Source: Candidatus Zhuqueibacterota bacterium (GTDB lineage Bacteria; Zhuqueibacterota; Zhuqueibacteria; Residuimicrobiales; Oceaniaggregativiventaceae). From it: a stretch of 35,075 bases of DNA. The notes under the pieces were generated by a model that was not told the origin of the DNA, did no database searches, and worked only from the letters and a program-made list of their open reading frames with translations. Where the stretch lies: assembly GCA_016929055.1 (NCBI GenBank), contig JAFGJN010000133.1, positions 1-35,075 on the forward strand. Direction: 5' to 3'. Position numbers and translations under genes: made by a program. Below, piece by piece: positions 4,220 to 17,955 of the stretch. Each line of letters begins with the position of its first letter. Position 1 is the stretch's first letter.

Positions 4220-4450
4220 TTAGAGATTGGATTTCGGCCGCCGTTTGCCAAACAAAACGGCACACGGTGCGTTCTTGGTTACCAATTCATTGAGCTGCGC
4301 GCAATAGAGCGCAGCAAAGGTGCGACAACTGTTGGCGCCATCCAGGTGCTCCTCCTGGGGAAAAGAAGCATGTTCGCATCGCAAATCGCAAAACTTGATG
4401 CGCGACGTTGTGACACCTGCATTGCCGGCGTTCTCGGTCTTGTTGGTCAT
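4220..4450 (-). CDS. Small Cys-rich protein, last gene of lexA operon
   Basis: A 76-residue protein of no function known to me. The ATG at 4450 lies 10 nt after the stop of the preceding gene with a GAGAG ribosome site. The frame stays open further upstream into that gene, but this start is the better one. It has five Cys: 21, 25, 42, 50 and 63, arranged as C-x3-C, then SCRTF, LYC and NAPC. The run CRTFAALYC followed by KNAPC looks like a conserved small-protein motif, and the Cys spacing would suit zinc or iron-sulfur binding. No signal peptide or membrane segment is seen, so it is probably cytoplasmic. Co-transcription with lexA would place it under SOS control. Confidence is moderate, because short genes with no recognised family are easily mistaken. 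Confidence 0.65.
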   Translation of the reverse strand: MTNKTENAGNAGVTTSRIKFCDLRCEHASFPQEEHLDGANSCRTFAALYCAQLNELVTKNAPCAVLFGKRRPKSNL

Positions 4451-4460
4451 AGATGCTCTC

Positions 4461-4700
4461 TTAAAACAATTCTCCCTGCACATCGACCGGATTGGTGCGA
4501 CGTGCGTTTTCCAGCTCTTCGATCCGTTCTTCCAGTGCATCGATAATCATCAGATGATCGCCCGACAAGAGCTTGCAGTTGAATTCCGCCTCTATACGAC
4601 GCAAAGTATCGTCCATATCCGAAGACATTTTCTGCAGCAAATCAGCGTCATTGTACCGACTCCAGTAGACCGACCACTCGGGAAGTTTGTTCTGCGTCAC
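4461..4700 (-). CDS. Small helical protein of lexA operon
   Basis: A 79-residue, highly charged protein that I do not recognise. The GTG at 4700 is chosen as start because AGGAGG lies 8 nt before it. The frame is open back to an ATG at 4736, but that start would put the ribosome site inside the gene. The sequence starts MTQNKLPEW and is rich in Glu, Asp and Leu. The stretch from about 22 to 66 (LLQKMSSDMDD through ALEERIEELEN) is predicted by eye to be helical, with a short coiled-coil-like heptad pattern. It is followed at 10 nt by the Cys-rich gene, so the two are surely co-transcribed. A 180-base gap separates it from the gene before, where no clear promoter was found. Confidence 0.65.
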   Translation of the reverse strand: MTQNKLPEWSVYWSRYNDADLLQKMSSDMDDTLRRIEAEFNCKLLSGDHLMIIDALEERIEELENARRTNPVDVQGELF

Positions 4701-4880
4701 CTGTTGTTCCTCCTGTTTATCCATGAAACACGACACGGGTTTGGCGATAATTGTGATCCGGTCGCTTTAAAAACTATGTCGATAGTTGATCGAGTATTCG
4801 CACCCCACCAGACTGTCCGAAAATGCACGCGCTGCGAATCGATCAAGATCTAATTTACGACAAATAAAAGTTTTCCATTT

Positions 4881-5273
4881 TCAATTGGCCGGGTTTTTGA
4901 CCAGAATTTCTTCGCCAAAATGTGAAATTTCATAAAGGCGCAGAGCCGACAACAAAAGCTCTTTCCAGGCGAACACCCGTTCCCGCCAGGTCTGAAGCTC
5001 GCCATCATGCGCCTGCCCGTTCTGACAGCGACCGGCAATGTCGGAATCGATACCTGCTTCCAGCAGTTCGAGGCGGCGGGCAATATGTGGTTCTCTTTCC
5101 TGCAAATCGCCGTAAAAATCGGCGGCCTCCATCCCATATTGGCTTTTAAATTTCACAAACACTTGTGATATCTGGGCGGCGGTACGTTCAAACAGCTGCA
5201 GTGGCGAGTCGGTCGACCCGTCCGTCTTATCGACAGCAAGAACCGACGGCACTTTACAAAGCGTTGCAGACAT
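4881..5273 (-). CDS. Hypothetical protein directly downstream of lexA
   Basis: A 130-residue protein that I do not recognise. The ATG at 5273 is 10 nt after the lexA stop and its GAGAGG ribosome site overlaps the lexA end, so it is translated from the lexA transcript. The frame is open upstream into lexA, but that part is not used. It is mostly helical and charged (TAAQISQVFVKFKSQYGM, then REPHIARRLELLEAG and WRERVFAWKELLLSALRLYE), with no signal peptide or membrane span and only two Cys. Its place as second gene of an SOS-regulated operon suggests a role in, or linked to, the DNA damage response, but nothing in the sequence itself shows a function. Confidence 0.7.
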   Translation of the reverse strand: MSATLCKVPSVLAVDKTDGSTDSPLQLFERTAAQISQVFVKFKSQYGMEAADFYGDLQEREPHIARRLELLEAGIDSDIAGRCQNGQAHDGELQTWRERVFAWKELLLSALRLYEISHFGEEILVKNPAN

Positions 5274-5283
5274 GGTTGGCCTC

Positions 5284-5913
5284 TCAAAATTTGCGCAACA
5301 ATCCGCGCACCTTGCCGATAATGCGCAATGTCGGATCATCGCGGTTCACATAGATCGGTTGCATCGTCTGATTTTCAGGCTGCAGCCGAATTCGTTCTTT
5401 TTCCCGATAGATGCGCTTGACCGTGGCTTCATCCTCAAGCAGCGCGATAATGATCTCGCCGTTGCGAATATTCACACCGGGTTCGACCACCAAAAGATCG
5501 CCTGGATAAATCCCCGCATCGACCATGCTGTGCCCCTGAACCCGCAGCAAATAGGTGTTTTTATTGCCGACCCAATCCGAATCGATGAAAAAATCACCCT
5601 CTTTCTCTTCGACCGCGAGCACAGGTTCGCCCGCGCGAACCTCTCCGACCAAAGGCAGCGCTTTTGCCCTTGCCCCTGCTGTCAACCGATCCTGCGCCAA
5701 TCCCAAAGAACGCGATTTGCCGCGGCTCAGTTGCGTCAGATAACCCTTGGCCTGGAGAATCTTGAGAATCTTGTGTACGCCAGCCGTCGACGATAGCCCG
5801 ACTTCGTCGGCCAGTTCGCGTACTGTCGGCGGAAAACCGTGCACTTGCGCATAGTCCACGAACAAATCATAGACCTTTTGTTGCCGCGCCGTCAATCGCT
5901 CGAGTCCGGCCAT
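5284..5913 (-). CDS. lexA: LexA SOS repressor
   Basis: A 209-residue repressor/autoprotease. The ATG at 5913 follows AGAGGAGA; the frame is open back to 6015, but that part covers the promoter and operator. Residues 1-65 form the winged helix-turn-helix domain, with TVRELADEVGLSSTAGVHK as the recognition segment. The C-terminal peptidase S24 domain has the cleavage bond Ala94-Gly95 and the catalytic pair Ser129 (GHSM) and Lys166 (ATVKR). RecA filaments on single-stranded DNA trigger self-cleavage and derepress SOS genes. Its own promoter carries a perfect GAAC-N4-GTTC operator, so it is self-regulated. Three small genes follow in the same direction. The expected length (about 200 residues) and all key residues are present. 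Confidence 0.97.
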   Translation of the reverse strand: MAGLERLTARQQKVYDLFVDYAQVHGFPPTVRELADEVGLSSTAGVHKILKILQAKGYLTQLSRGKSRSLGLAQDRLTAGARAKALPLVGEVRAGEPVLAVEEKEGDFFIDSDWVGNKNTYLLRVQGHSMVDAGIYPGDLLVVEPGVNIRNGEIIIALLEDEATVKRIYREKERIRLQPENQTMQPIYVNRDDPTLRIIGKVRGLLRKF

Positions 5914-5956
5914 TCTCCTCTTTCCGATAGTTGCGATTATTTGTTTCTTTTTAGGT

Positions 5957-5968
5957 GAACATCTGTTC
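5957..5968 (-). promoter_or_regulatory. LexA operator (SOS box, Gram-positive type)
   Basis: Read on the minus strand this is GAACAGATGTTC, a perfect match to the GAAC-N4-GTTC dyad bound by Bacillus/Actinobacteria-type LexA and unlike the Enterobacteria CTGT-N8-ACAG box. It covers the expected transcription start, about 7 nt beyond the -10 hexamer, so bound LexA would block initiation. It is the only perfect copy noticed in the window. Confidence 0.93.
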
Positions 5969-5973
5969 TCCTT

Positions 5974-6002
5974 ATTATACATAAAAAGTGTATTTTTGTC
6001 AA
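5974..6002 (-). promoter_or_regulatory. Consensus sigma-70 promoter of lexA operon
   Basis: On the minus strand, TTGACA (6002-5997) and TATAAT (5979-5974) are separated by exactly 17 nt, matching the housekeeping consensus at all 12 positions. Transcription should start near 5967, inside the SOS box, giving a leader of about 54 nt before the lexA ATG. Such a strong promoter fits a gene that is held down by its own repressor. Confidence 0.92.
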
Positions 6003-14732: not shown

Positions 14733-16744
14733 AGTTTATCCTTTGCATTCCATCGAGTAATCAGGGCAATCGGCAAGGGAGCGGTGATTTCGAAAACCAG
14801 GGCATATCGGGGAACGGATCGACCAAAAGCAGGCGATATCCAACCGGGCGATCCATGCGGACCGCCTTTTTCCAATCGCGCTTCGACCGACGCCCTTGAC
14901 TTCCAATGTACAGTTAAATCAGCACTTTTAAAAGAAAATAATAATCGCTGATCCTGGGGTTTTTCTGTGCTTTGGCAGTCACCGAGATGAAAAAACCAGG
15001 TGACACGGTGCAAACCATGACCTTCGATCACGTCAACCACGCTCCAGACACCGGAGCGATAGCGCAACCGTCTTTGCACCGAGATGCCGTATCGCCGATA
15101 CCCATCGTGGCAAGCGATTGCTTCTGCGTCCTTGTAATCGCATCGGCCGCCGACACAGGTCGCCCGCGGTGTTGCCAGCCACTGAAAAGGCCCGCCGGAA
15201 CGTGCGAATTCCTGTCCATCGACCACAAAAGTGTTGTGAGCCCGGCATCCCCTGAAATACGATCGCTGCGACTGGGCGCCCAGATAGAGATAGGTCCCGC
15301 CGTCGGTGAGCAGGGCTTCCTTTTCGTTGCTAAGCCAAAAGCTCAGGGTATCCGCATGCCCATGGGCCACCAGAGGCGACAGCCCCATGGGACCGCCGTC
15401 CAGCCAGCCGAACTGGCGCAGGGTGCGATCGTCTGTTTCGATCGTCGCCAGACCACCATTGTCGAACCGGCGCAGACGGACCATCTCTGAGGGCCGCGAT
15501 AAAGCCGGCGGCCGGTCGAGGTTACCGTTCAACCAAAAAGCCCATTCGCCTGCCCGAGCTGTTTCGCCCGTCCCGGTAGCCGGCGCTAATCCGGCCTGCC
15601 AGGCGGCGAGCAGCAGACTCGTCGCACAAGCAGGATAGAGGCCGGGGCGCAGCGCTTCACCGCCATCATCGTCGCCGATCGGCCAGAGCGCATCTTCCGG
15701 AGGCCAGGCGGCGATGAAATCCACCATTGCCCGAACGCGTTGTTTAAATCCATTCGGCAGCGAACGTCCGCAGGATCGAGCGGCCAGGCCAACCATCAGC
15801 GCATAGACGAAAACATAGCGCTGATAGCAGAGACTCTGCTCCTTGAGAACACCGTCCGGGTAGACCTGACGTTCGATTTCGCGAAAAACGATGGCAAACC
15901 CGGTATCCCTCCAAGTGCTGCTGTTCCGAAATTCAGGGAACCAGCAGCCGACCAGCGCCAATCCGGTGGCTTCGCCGATCAAATGGTTGTTGGCACCGGC
16001 GCCAGCGGAGAGAAAGGCGCAAATCGCATCGGCCTGCCAGGCAATTGCAAAGCGAATGGCGGAACACAGCTTTTCGTCCAACTCGCTGTTTTTGCCGACA
16101 ATTGCCAGCGTCCAGGTCCAGCTGATCAGGCGCAAGGCCATTTCCAGGCTGCTGACGGCGTTGACACCGCAAAAAGGCGCATTGGTTTCCAGCCAGCTGC
16201 GCCATTGATTGCACAGCTCTTGCAGATATCGAGCCTCACCGCTCAGACGATAAGCTTTGGCCAGAACCAAAAAATGCTGATGGCGGTTGAGCTCCCAGAC
16301 ATAGCGCACTTCACGCACGCTAGCGGGAGACCAGACATGGCGAGGTCTCATCGCTCTTAATGGAATTGTCCGGTCGCCCAACCAGTCATAATGCCAATCG
16401 ATTTTGCCGGAAAATCGATGCCGGCAGTTAAGAATTTCGAATTCATGTTGGCAGAACCGATCAGCATGGCGAAGAATTTCCGTTTTGTAATCCGAAAAGC
16501 GGTCGGCATAAAGAGAGCATAAATCATGCCGAGTGTATTTCTGCCACGCAAACAGCTTTTTTTTCCAGAGGTCAAAATCGGCAGGATGGGTATCGGGAAA
16601 GAGATCCCGCGATCGGAAATCGTCCTGGGTTCGTCGTCTCCAGCGGCGTTGCAATCGGTAACGCCGAACAACGCCGCCCAGACGATCCTTAAGTTCGGTT
16701 ATACCGGCGGCGCGCAATCGATTCCATAACACTCGGCCCTTCAT
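14684..16744 (-). CDS. Heparinase II/III-family polysaccharide lyase-like protein
   Basis: A 686-residue protein of the heparinase II/III (alginate lyase-type) family. The N-terminal (alpha/alpha) toroid domain (about 60-390) has NNHLIGE (252-258) and KEQSLCYQRY (301-310), the region holding the Asn/His and Tyr of the family's active site. The C-terminal beta-sandwich (about 410-650) includes VAHGHADTLSFWL and GCRAHNTFVVDG. Such enzymes cleave uronic-acid-containing polysaccharides by beta-elimination. Many members in exopolysaccharide clusters lack a signal peptide, as here, and have unproven activity. The start overlaps the dinB stop as ATGA, so it is translationally coupled to dinB. The C-terminal end overlaps the LytS-like gene by 49 nt. 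The C5-epimerase-like and GT4 genes nearby fit a uronic-acid polymer. Confidence 0.9.
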   Translation of the reverse strand: MKGRVLWNRLRAAGITELKDRLGGVVRRYRLQRRWRRRTQDDFRSRDLFPDTHPADFDLWKKKLFAWQKYTRHDLCSLYADRFSDYKTEILRHADRFCQHEFEILNCRHRFSGKIDWHYDWLGDRTIPLRAMRPRHVWSPASVREVRYVWELNRHQHFLVLAKAYRLSGEARYLQELCNQWRSWLETNAPFCGVNAVSSLEMALRLISWTWTLAIVGKNSELDEKLCSAIRFAIAWQADAICAFLSAGAGANNHLIGEATGLALVGCWFPEFRNSSTWRDTGFAIVFREIERQVYPDGVLKEQSLCYQRYVFVYALMVGLAARSCGRSLPNGFKQRVRAMVDFIAAWPPEDALWPIGDDDGGEALRPGLYPACATSLLLAAWQAGLAPATGTGETARAGEWAFWLNGNLDRPPALSRPSEMVRLRRFDNGGLATIETDDRTLRQFGWLDGGPMGLSPLVAHGHADTLSFWLSNEKEALLTDGGTYLYLGAQSQRSYFRGCRAHNTFVVDGQEFARSGGPFQWLATPRATCVGGRCDYKDAEAIACHDGYRRYGISVQRRLRYRSGVWSVVDVIEGHGLHRVTWFFHLGDCQSTEKPQDQRLLFSFKSADLTVHWKSRASVEARLEKGGPHGSPGWISPAFGRSVPRYALVFEITAPLPIALITRWNAKDKLCASPGSSAGSSSPGS

Positions 16745-17955
16745 ATCTCGTCCAGATTTGACCGCTCGGATGGAGAATGCGGTTGTCGCGGCGATCGGCT
16801 GGCACTGGCGCGGCGGATGGCGTCTTGACCGAATTGCTCCTTGACGCGATCCATGAGGCGATCGATCGTGTCCACCTCTGACCGGCCGGATTGAAACAAA
16901 TCGAGCTGAGACGCTTCATCCTCGAAATGAGAAACCCCGACGCCGATGAGTCGAACCGCCTGACCGCCGCGATCGAAAGCCTGAAACAAGTCGCGCGCAG
17001 TATTATAGAGTTCGCCCGAATTGATCGCCGGATGCGACAGGGTGCGAGCGCGGGTAAAGGTGGAAAAATCAGACAGCCGGATCTTGATCGTTATGGTGCG
17101 ACCGCGATAATATTTGCGGCGCAGTTCATGGGCCAGTTCATCGCACAATGTGCGCAAAGTCGTGAGCAATTCATCGGTGTCATTTCGGTCGTGAGAAAAA
17201 GTTACTTCTTTGCTCATCGATTTGACCTGTCCAGCGGCCCCTACCACACGGTCGTCTATGCCGTTGGCTAACCGCTGGAAATGAAGCCCGTGGTCTCCAA
17301 AAAACCGGACCACCTCCCGCTCGCTCATTCGAGCCAAATCGCCGATGCGGAAAATGCCCTGTCGATGCATCAACGGCAATGTGCGCCTTCCCACACCCCA
17401 CAGCCGCTCGATCTCAAGCGGCGCGAGAAACGCTTTTTCGGTACCGGGCATCACAATGACCAAACCGTTCGGTTTTTGCAGATCCGAAGCGATCTTGGCA
17501 ACAAATTTGTTGCCGGCGACACCAACCGAAGCGGTTAAACCAATCTCCTGTCGGATTCGATCTTTGATGGTTTTGGCGGTCATTTCAGTGGAACCGAAAA
17601 ACTTAAAAGTCGAGGTTATATCGAGAAAAGCTTCGTCGATACTGAGCGGTTCGACCAGCGGGGTAAAATCATGCAGAATTGCCATGATCCGCTGCGATAT
17701 TCCGGCATAGCGTTCGCCGCGCGGCCTGACAAACAGCGCATGGGGACAGAGTTTCCAGGCACGGGTAATCGGCATGGCCGAATGAATGCCGTAGCGCCGT
17801 GCTTCATAACTGCAGGTGGAGACGACGCCGCGACCTTTGCCGCCTTTTGGGTCGGCCCCGACTATAACCGGTTTGCCGCGCATTTCAGGATGATCCAGCT
17901 GCTCCACGGCAGCAAAAAATGCATCCATATCGATATGTAAAATAACCCGGGGCAT
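16741..17955 (-). CDS. dinB: DNA polymerase IV (Y-family)
   Basis: A 404-residue translesion DNA polymerase. Catalytic metal ligands are Asp9 (HIDMDAFF) and Asp107/Glu108 in SIDEAFLD. The polymerase palm/finger motifs (CSYEARRYGIHSAMPI), the thumb helix-hairpin-helix (LWGVGRRTLPLMHRQGI) and the little-finger domain are all present. QLDLF at 350-354 matches the beta-clamp-binding motif. The ATG at 17955 has AAGGA upstream. It copies past damaged bases in the SOS response and would be expected under LexA control. Only a degenerate operator-like half-site lies upstream (see rejected). Its coupling to a polysaccharide-lyase gene by ATGA overlap is odd. Confidence 0.97.
   Translation of the reverse strand: MPRVILHIDMDAFFAAVEQLDHPEMRGKPVIVGADPKGGKGRGVVSTCSYEARRYGIHSAMPITRAWKLCPHALFVRPRGERYAGISQRIMAILHDFTPLVEPLSIDEAFLDITSTFKFFGSTEMTAKTIKDRIRQEIGLTASVGVAGNKFVAKIASDLQKPNGLVIVMPGTEKAFLAPLEIERLWGVGRRTLPLMHRQGIFRIGDLARMSEREVVRFFGDHGLHFQRLANGIDDRVVGAAGQVKSMSKEVTFSHDRNDTDELLTTLRTLCDELAHELRRKYYRGRTITIKIRLSDFSTFTRARTLSHPAINSGELYNTARDLFQAFDRGGQAVRLIGVGVSHFEDEASQLDLFQSGRSEVDTIDRLMDRVKEQFGQDAIRRASASRSPRQPHSPSERSNLDEI

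Follow-up and report, generated by a model that had tools for sequence, protein, structure and literature searches.

The gene that stays linked to lexA across this bacterial class is a short one encoding a 79-residue protein, o79, and not the five-cysteine gene o76 that lies next to it in the operon described here. On its sequence, o79 is most likely a LexA-linked, predicted ligand of the beta sliding clamp, belonging to a family that is unnamed and undescribed. The window, meaning the whole stretch of 35,075 nucleotides that was analysed, is contig C201 of a 4.05 Mb draft genome from Candidatus Zhuqueibacterota, whose named relatives are MAGs labelled candidate division KSB1 or Calditrichota. 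On the minus strand of the window lexA, o130, o79 and o76 lie in a row, with intergenic spacings of 10, 180 and 10 nt, and the locus has the following features.

5974..6002, minus strand: lexA promoter, TTGACA and TATAAT with a 17-nt spacer, agreeing with the sigma-70 consensus at 12/12 positions.
5955..5970, unstranded: putative LexA box GAGAACAGATGTTCAC, immediately downstream of the -10 element, PWM score 22.0.
5284..5913, minus strand: lexA (LexA1), canonical repressor; TIGR00498 at E=7.6e-56 (188.9 bits), with PF01726 and PF00717.
4881..5273, minus strand: o130, 130 residues, uncharacterised and all-helical, second gene of the lexA operon in its own order; profile matches adjoining lexA in 5 families.
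4709..4714, minus strand: AGGAGG ribosome-binding site of o79, 8 nt 5' of the GTG, read from the sequence.
4461..4700, minus strand: o79, 79 residues, GTG start, predicted helical, with a C-terminal predicted clamp motif; one homologue per genome, 8 families.
4464..4478, minus strand: QGELF codons, the C-terminal predicted beta-clamp-binding motif of o79; Q, L and F invariant in 17/17 sequences.
4220..4450, minus strand: o76, 76 residues, five-Cys protein with Cys at 21, 25, 42, 50 and 63; all five invariant in a 43-sequence alignment.

A preliminary description of this DNA had proposed lexA and three small genes at these coordinates and spacings, all of which were confirmed on the minus strand; it mentioned neither the LexA box in front of lexA nor the QGELF with which o79 ends. 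All four are real, conserved genes. Measured against the nearest relative, from the same genus, pN/pS was 0.24 for lexA, 0.55 for o130, 0.26 for o79 and 0.15 for o76, indicating purifying selection at the protein level on all four, weakest on o130. Profile searches of Pfam, NCBIfam, PHROGs and PDB with o130, o79 and o76 gave no relative above the cut-off.

The arrangement lexA-o130-o79 is present in all five families (f1-f5) of the window's order, and in three further families of the same class (f8, f12 and f13) o79 accompanies lexA without a recognised o130. With a profile of o79, most members of these eight families yielded a single homologue each and the remainder of the phylum yielded none; the LexA of families f6, f7 and f9-f11 is of another kind, with the C-terminus ...GKVVALIRE, and o79 was not found there. 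Of the 29 o79 loci, 25 have lexA on the same strand no more than 1.5 kb upstream. The other four comprise one locus at a contig end, the locus of genome G002, where a 332-residue gene on the opposite strand sits between o130 and o79 (L051, G002:C115, between 8201 and 9338) and places lexA 1.6 kb upstream, and those of G010 and G014, two genomes with no LexA match at E<=1e-30. In both of the latter o79 is retained, motif included, and is flanked by a peptidase gene and a valS-like gene (L099 in G010, L097 in G014). The adjacency of o79 and o76, by comparison, was seen in the window's family, where the two genes lie 10-52 nt apart in 4/4 genomes examined and all four genes are contiguous in three, the exception being G002. 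Whereas the preliminary description treated the three small genes as one set beside lexA, a survey of gene neighbourhoods found the linkage conserved for o79 (8 families) and for o130 (own order), and lacking for o76 outside a single family.

It is very probable that LexA controls the operon, and we infer that it does so by binding the box at the lexA promoter. That box scored 22.0 with the PWM against 9.7 for the second-best site in the window; since the PWM was built from these same lexA promoters, it is the contrast between the scores, not the value itself, that counts as evidence. Every own-order relative with available DNA has a box matching GTGAACAnnTGTTCAC (at most 3 mismatches in 14) in front of lexA, in the same promoter layout. 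Co-expression of the small genes under LexA, as originally put forward, is further supported by the 180-base gap 5' of o79: no promoter-like or terminator-like site is present there on the minus strand, and the gap is only about 25 nt in relative G003.

In f8 and f12 the GAAC-N4-GTTC type box of the lexA promoter is replaced by a different palindrome, GGGTACATTAnTACCC (L113-L117, L120), so that the link between lexA and o79 has outlived a change of putative operator. A switch of LexA operator inside one class is the probable interpretation. When sites with up to 2 mismatches were sought across the genome, the lexA2-imuB promoter alone was plausible besides that of lexA1; the remaining matches lay inside or at unrelated ORFs and were rejected. 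No good LexA box was found within 450 bp upstream of recA, except one at -244 in G001. Because the imuB cassettes of relatives mostly lack a LexA1 box, we do not claim a broad LexA1 regulon.

Alignment of 17 own-order o79 sequences revealed a conserved core (W9, Y12, W13, L22, D30, T32, E37, KL(L/M)SGD, L56 and R59) separated by a variable linker from a tail, Q-x-[S/D/E/N]-L-F, that stands at or near the C-terminus of every one of them; its Q, L and F never vary. Family members were also recognised by their SGD motif in a second, independent set of ORFs, and there 12/13 had the pattern within their last 16 residues, compared with 1/839 background proteins. The bacterial clamp-binding consensus is QL(S/D)LF (PMC9690074). 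The o79 tail differs from this at position 2, which is variable and not Leu. In the DnaE1 proteins encoded by these genomes, Q-x-[S/T/N]-[M/L/I/F]-F stands near residue 910 (for example QTSMFD, QYSIFD, QTTLFD, QYSMFD, QFSIFG and QESLFD), the place occupied in E. coli DnaE by its clamp motif. Given these matching motifs, o79 and the DnaE of the same cells share one clamp grammar, and binding of o79 to the beta sliding clamp through its tail is likely. Other clamp motifs in the window's genome are QLDLF in DinB and QLSLF in an ImuB-like protein. The form Q-x-x-[LMI]-F is common to o79, DinB (Pol IV) and DnaE; the latter two are polymerases, however, whereas o79 has 79 residues and no catalytic domain. 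The gene for DinB lies within the window (16741-17955), with no LexA1 box nearby. In G017 a DnaE match is split by internal stop codons (G017:C2:1097915-1100177) in an otherwise good assembly, which may reflect either a sequencing error or a genuine break in the gene.

The context of o79 in G040 (f13) associates it with damage tolerance. One strand of this genome carries, in this order, lexA, o79, a gene for an ImuB-like Y-family protein that has a QLSFF motif and substitutions at its catalytic aspartates, an unrelated small gene, and a gene for a DnaE2-like polymerase. In the window's genome a lexA2-ImuB-like-DnaE2 cluster lies apart, on contig C275 (L166, 2370-8680), with a weaker LexA box, GTGTAAATTTGTTCAC; its ImuB-like protein, which bears the QLSLF motif, has also lost the catalytic Asp. 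Instead of acting as a brake on DnaE1, o79 could be a translesion accessory that replaces ImuA in the ImuB-DnaE2 mutasome, which would suit the gene order of G040, the presence of an ImuB-like protein and a second DnaE in most o79 genomes, and the fact that ImuA was not noticed in the cassettes examined. We regard this as unlikely. Genomes G010, G014 and G016 have o79 with its motif, yet ImuB and DnaE2 were not found in them; the imuB cassette of own-order genomes lies at another site, in several of them with a second LexA; and the ImuB-like proteins possess a clamp motif of their own. Where the mutasome is modelled with ImuB as its hub, ImuB alone binds the clamp (PMC3901139, PMC10421592). 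Taking the G040 cassette together with the genomes in which o79 occurs without ImuB or DnaE2, we consider o79 to be associated with SOS and translesion functions and not bound to the mutasome. The retention of the motif in G010 and G014, without lexA, ImuB or DnaE2, means in turn that its role is not only one in the SOS response or the mutasome.

The locus invites comparison with the lexA-imuA-imuB-dnaE2 (ImuABC) system, which is likewise linked to LexA and contains a clamp-binding protein; the o79 of G040 is found in a lexA-o79-ImuB-like-DnaE2 cassette. The differences are that o79 has no similarity to the RecA-like ImuA and matches no curated family, and that in the own order it stands with lexA1, apart from imuB-dnaE2, and has a clamp motif of its own. 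Neither o79 nor o130 showed similarity to ImuA in Pfam, NCBIfam or PDB.

Another reading takes the Q-x-x-L-F tail to be a conserved end serving folding, or contact with some other partner, and not a clamp motif. Consistent with this, position 2 is not Leu, and the homologues of f8, f12 and f13, which still adjoin lexA, lack the canonical Q motif, those of f8 and f12 terminating instead in VAA, IAA, KAA or AAA. The pattern of conservation makes this reading improbable: Q, L and F are invariant, the third position is acidic, Ser or Asn, the linker before the tail is variable, and DnaE1 in the same genomes follows the same grammar. What the homologues of f8, f12 and f13 without the motif do imply is a role of the o79 core that is independent of the tail.

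The product of o130 is modelled by AF2 as a helical bundle (pLDDT 78), with no Foldseek match at E<=0.001. The best PDB score among the small proteins, that of o130 to 8fjg (H12; 3.8e-5), was set aside as probably due to helix composition. The protein ends in AA in 8/17 sequences against 2 % of background proteins, although the sequences are related and the count is accordingly not a probability. This end resembles a ClpXP recognition end, and o130 may therefore be unstable.

Two small neighbouring genes, one with a clamp motif and the other with degron-like AA ends among its relatives, might also form a clamp-targeting toxin-antitoxin or adaptor pair resembling SocA-SocB, in which o79 would block elongation and o130 would control o79. 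SocB acts through such a motif (PMC9690074). We think this quite improbable, as pairing is not obligate, o79 being found without o130 in f8, f12, f13, G010 and G014, and as the inheritance of the pair looks vertical, with a single copy per genome adjoining lexA. The likeness to SocB, a replication inhibitor of Caulobacter crescentus, is that of a small protein seizing the clamp cleft by means of a motif, which for o79 is predicted. A difference is that o79 is linked to LexA and often has no partner gene.

An alignment of 43 proteins from KSB1-type genomes and Desulfobacterota shows no variation at the five Cys of o76, and a metal or Fe-S site is plausible on this basis; in two distant relatives the Cys spacing is kept while most other residues are lost. 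The AF2 model of o76 (pLDDT 73) gave no Foldseek match at E<=0.001, and the protein matched no family. Most genomes of the window's order encode it, as do members of several other families of the class, with identities mostly of 54-84 %, and 27/247 Desulfobacterota genomes have a match. Linkage to lexA is confined to the window's family, where it was seen in four genomes; in the others o76 has different neighbours, with lexA never among them. When the 400 bp upstream of o76 were searched for an exact GAACN4GTTC, only two relatives outside that family had one. In several Desulfobacterota genomes the relatives of o76 adjoin LemA-type and DUF2207/TPM-type genes (L046-L050, L185, L188, L189), and three large viral IMG/VR contigs of 86-162 kb encode relatives as well (L211-L213); none was found in plasmids. 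We conclude that o76 represents a separate, highly conserved family that entered the operon in the window's family alone. A damage module built from the three small genes around o76 as a redox or Fe-S sensor, the form in which the idea was first put forward, draws on the invariant Cys and on the o79-o76 adjacency in four genomes of one family, but is very improbable given that o76 stands at other sites, away from lexA, in every family but this one and in Desulfobacterota. The broader idea of an undescribed damage-response module is supported, with o79 and not o76 as the gene of note.

Small proteins encoded beside lexA under a GAAC-N4-GTTC type box are known from Bacillus subtilis, in the lexA / yneA-yneB-ynzC locus. 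The present locus differs in that o130 and o79 lie behind lexA in an operon on the same strand, and in that no match to DUF896 (YnzC) or LysM (YneA) was obtained; for the Pfam family DUF896, none of the 26 o79 members gave a match at E<=0.1. A search of a literature library found no paper on the SOS response in this phylum.

We favour, with some reserve, a model in which this is an SOS operon and o79 a clamp ligand that alters polymerase access. LexA1 would repress its own promoter through the GTGAACAnnTGTTCAC box, and DNA damage would lift this repression, leading to co-induction of o130 and o79, and of o76 as well in the window's family. The small helical protein o79 would then dock on the beta sliding clamp via its Q-x-x-L-F tail, occupying the cleft used by the replicative DnaE with its very similar motif. 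The polymerase holding the clamp at damaged forks would change as a result, with o79 braking DnaE, helping translesion polymerases, or both; alternatively, the conserved core of o79 might recruit a partner. On balance an effect of o79 on polymerase access seems somewhat the better expectation. In this model o130 would be a helical, possibly unstable partner, and o76 a passenger whose separate function probably involves metal. A more specific proposal, which we offer tentatively and consider doubtful, is that the LexA-controlled o79 family, as a mimic of the clamp-binding tag of the replicative polymerase, evicts DnaE from the clamp after damage, LexA1 being mainly the dedicated switch of this one operon while the second LexA runs imuB-dnaE2.

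Clamp competitors induced in the SOS response help to decide between stalling, bypass and mutation at lesions, and most of those known are polymerases or resemble polymerases. With its 79 residues, its link to LexA and a near-copy of the tag by which DnaE grips the clamp, o79 would amount to a minimal regulator of the clamp.
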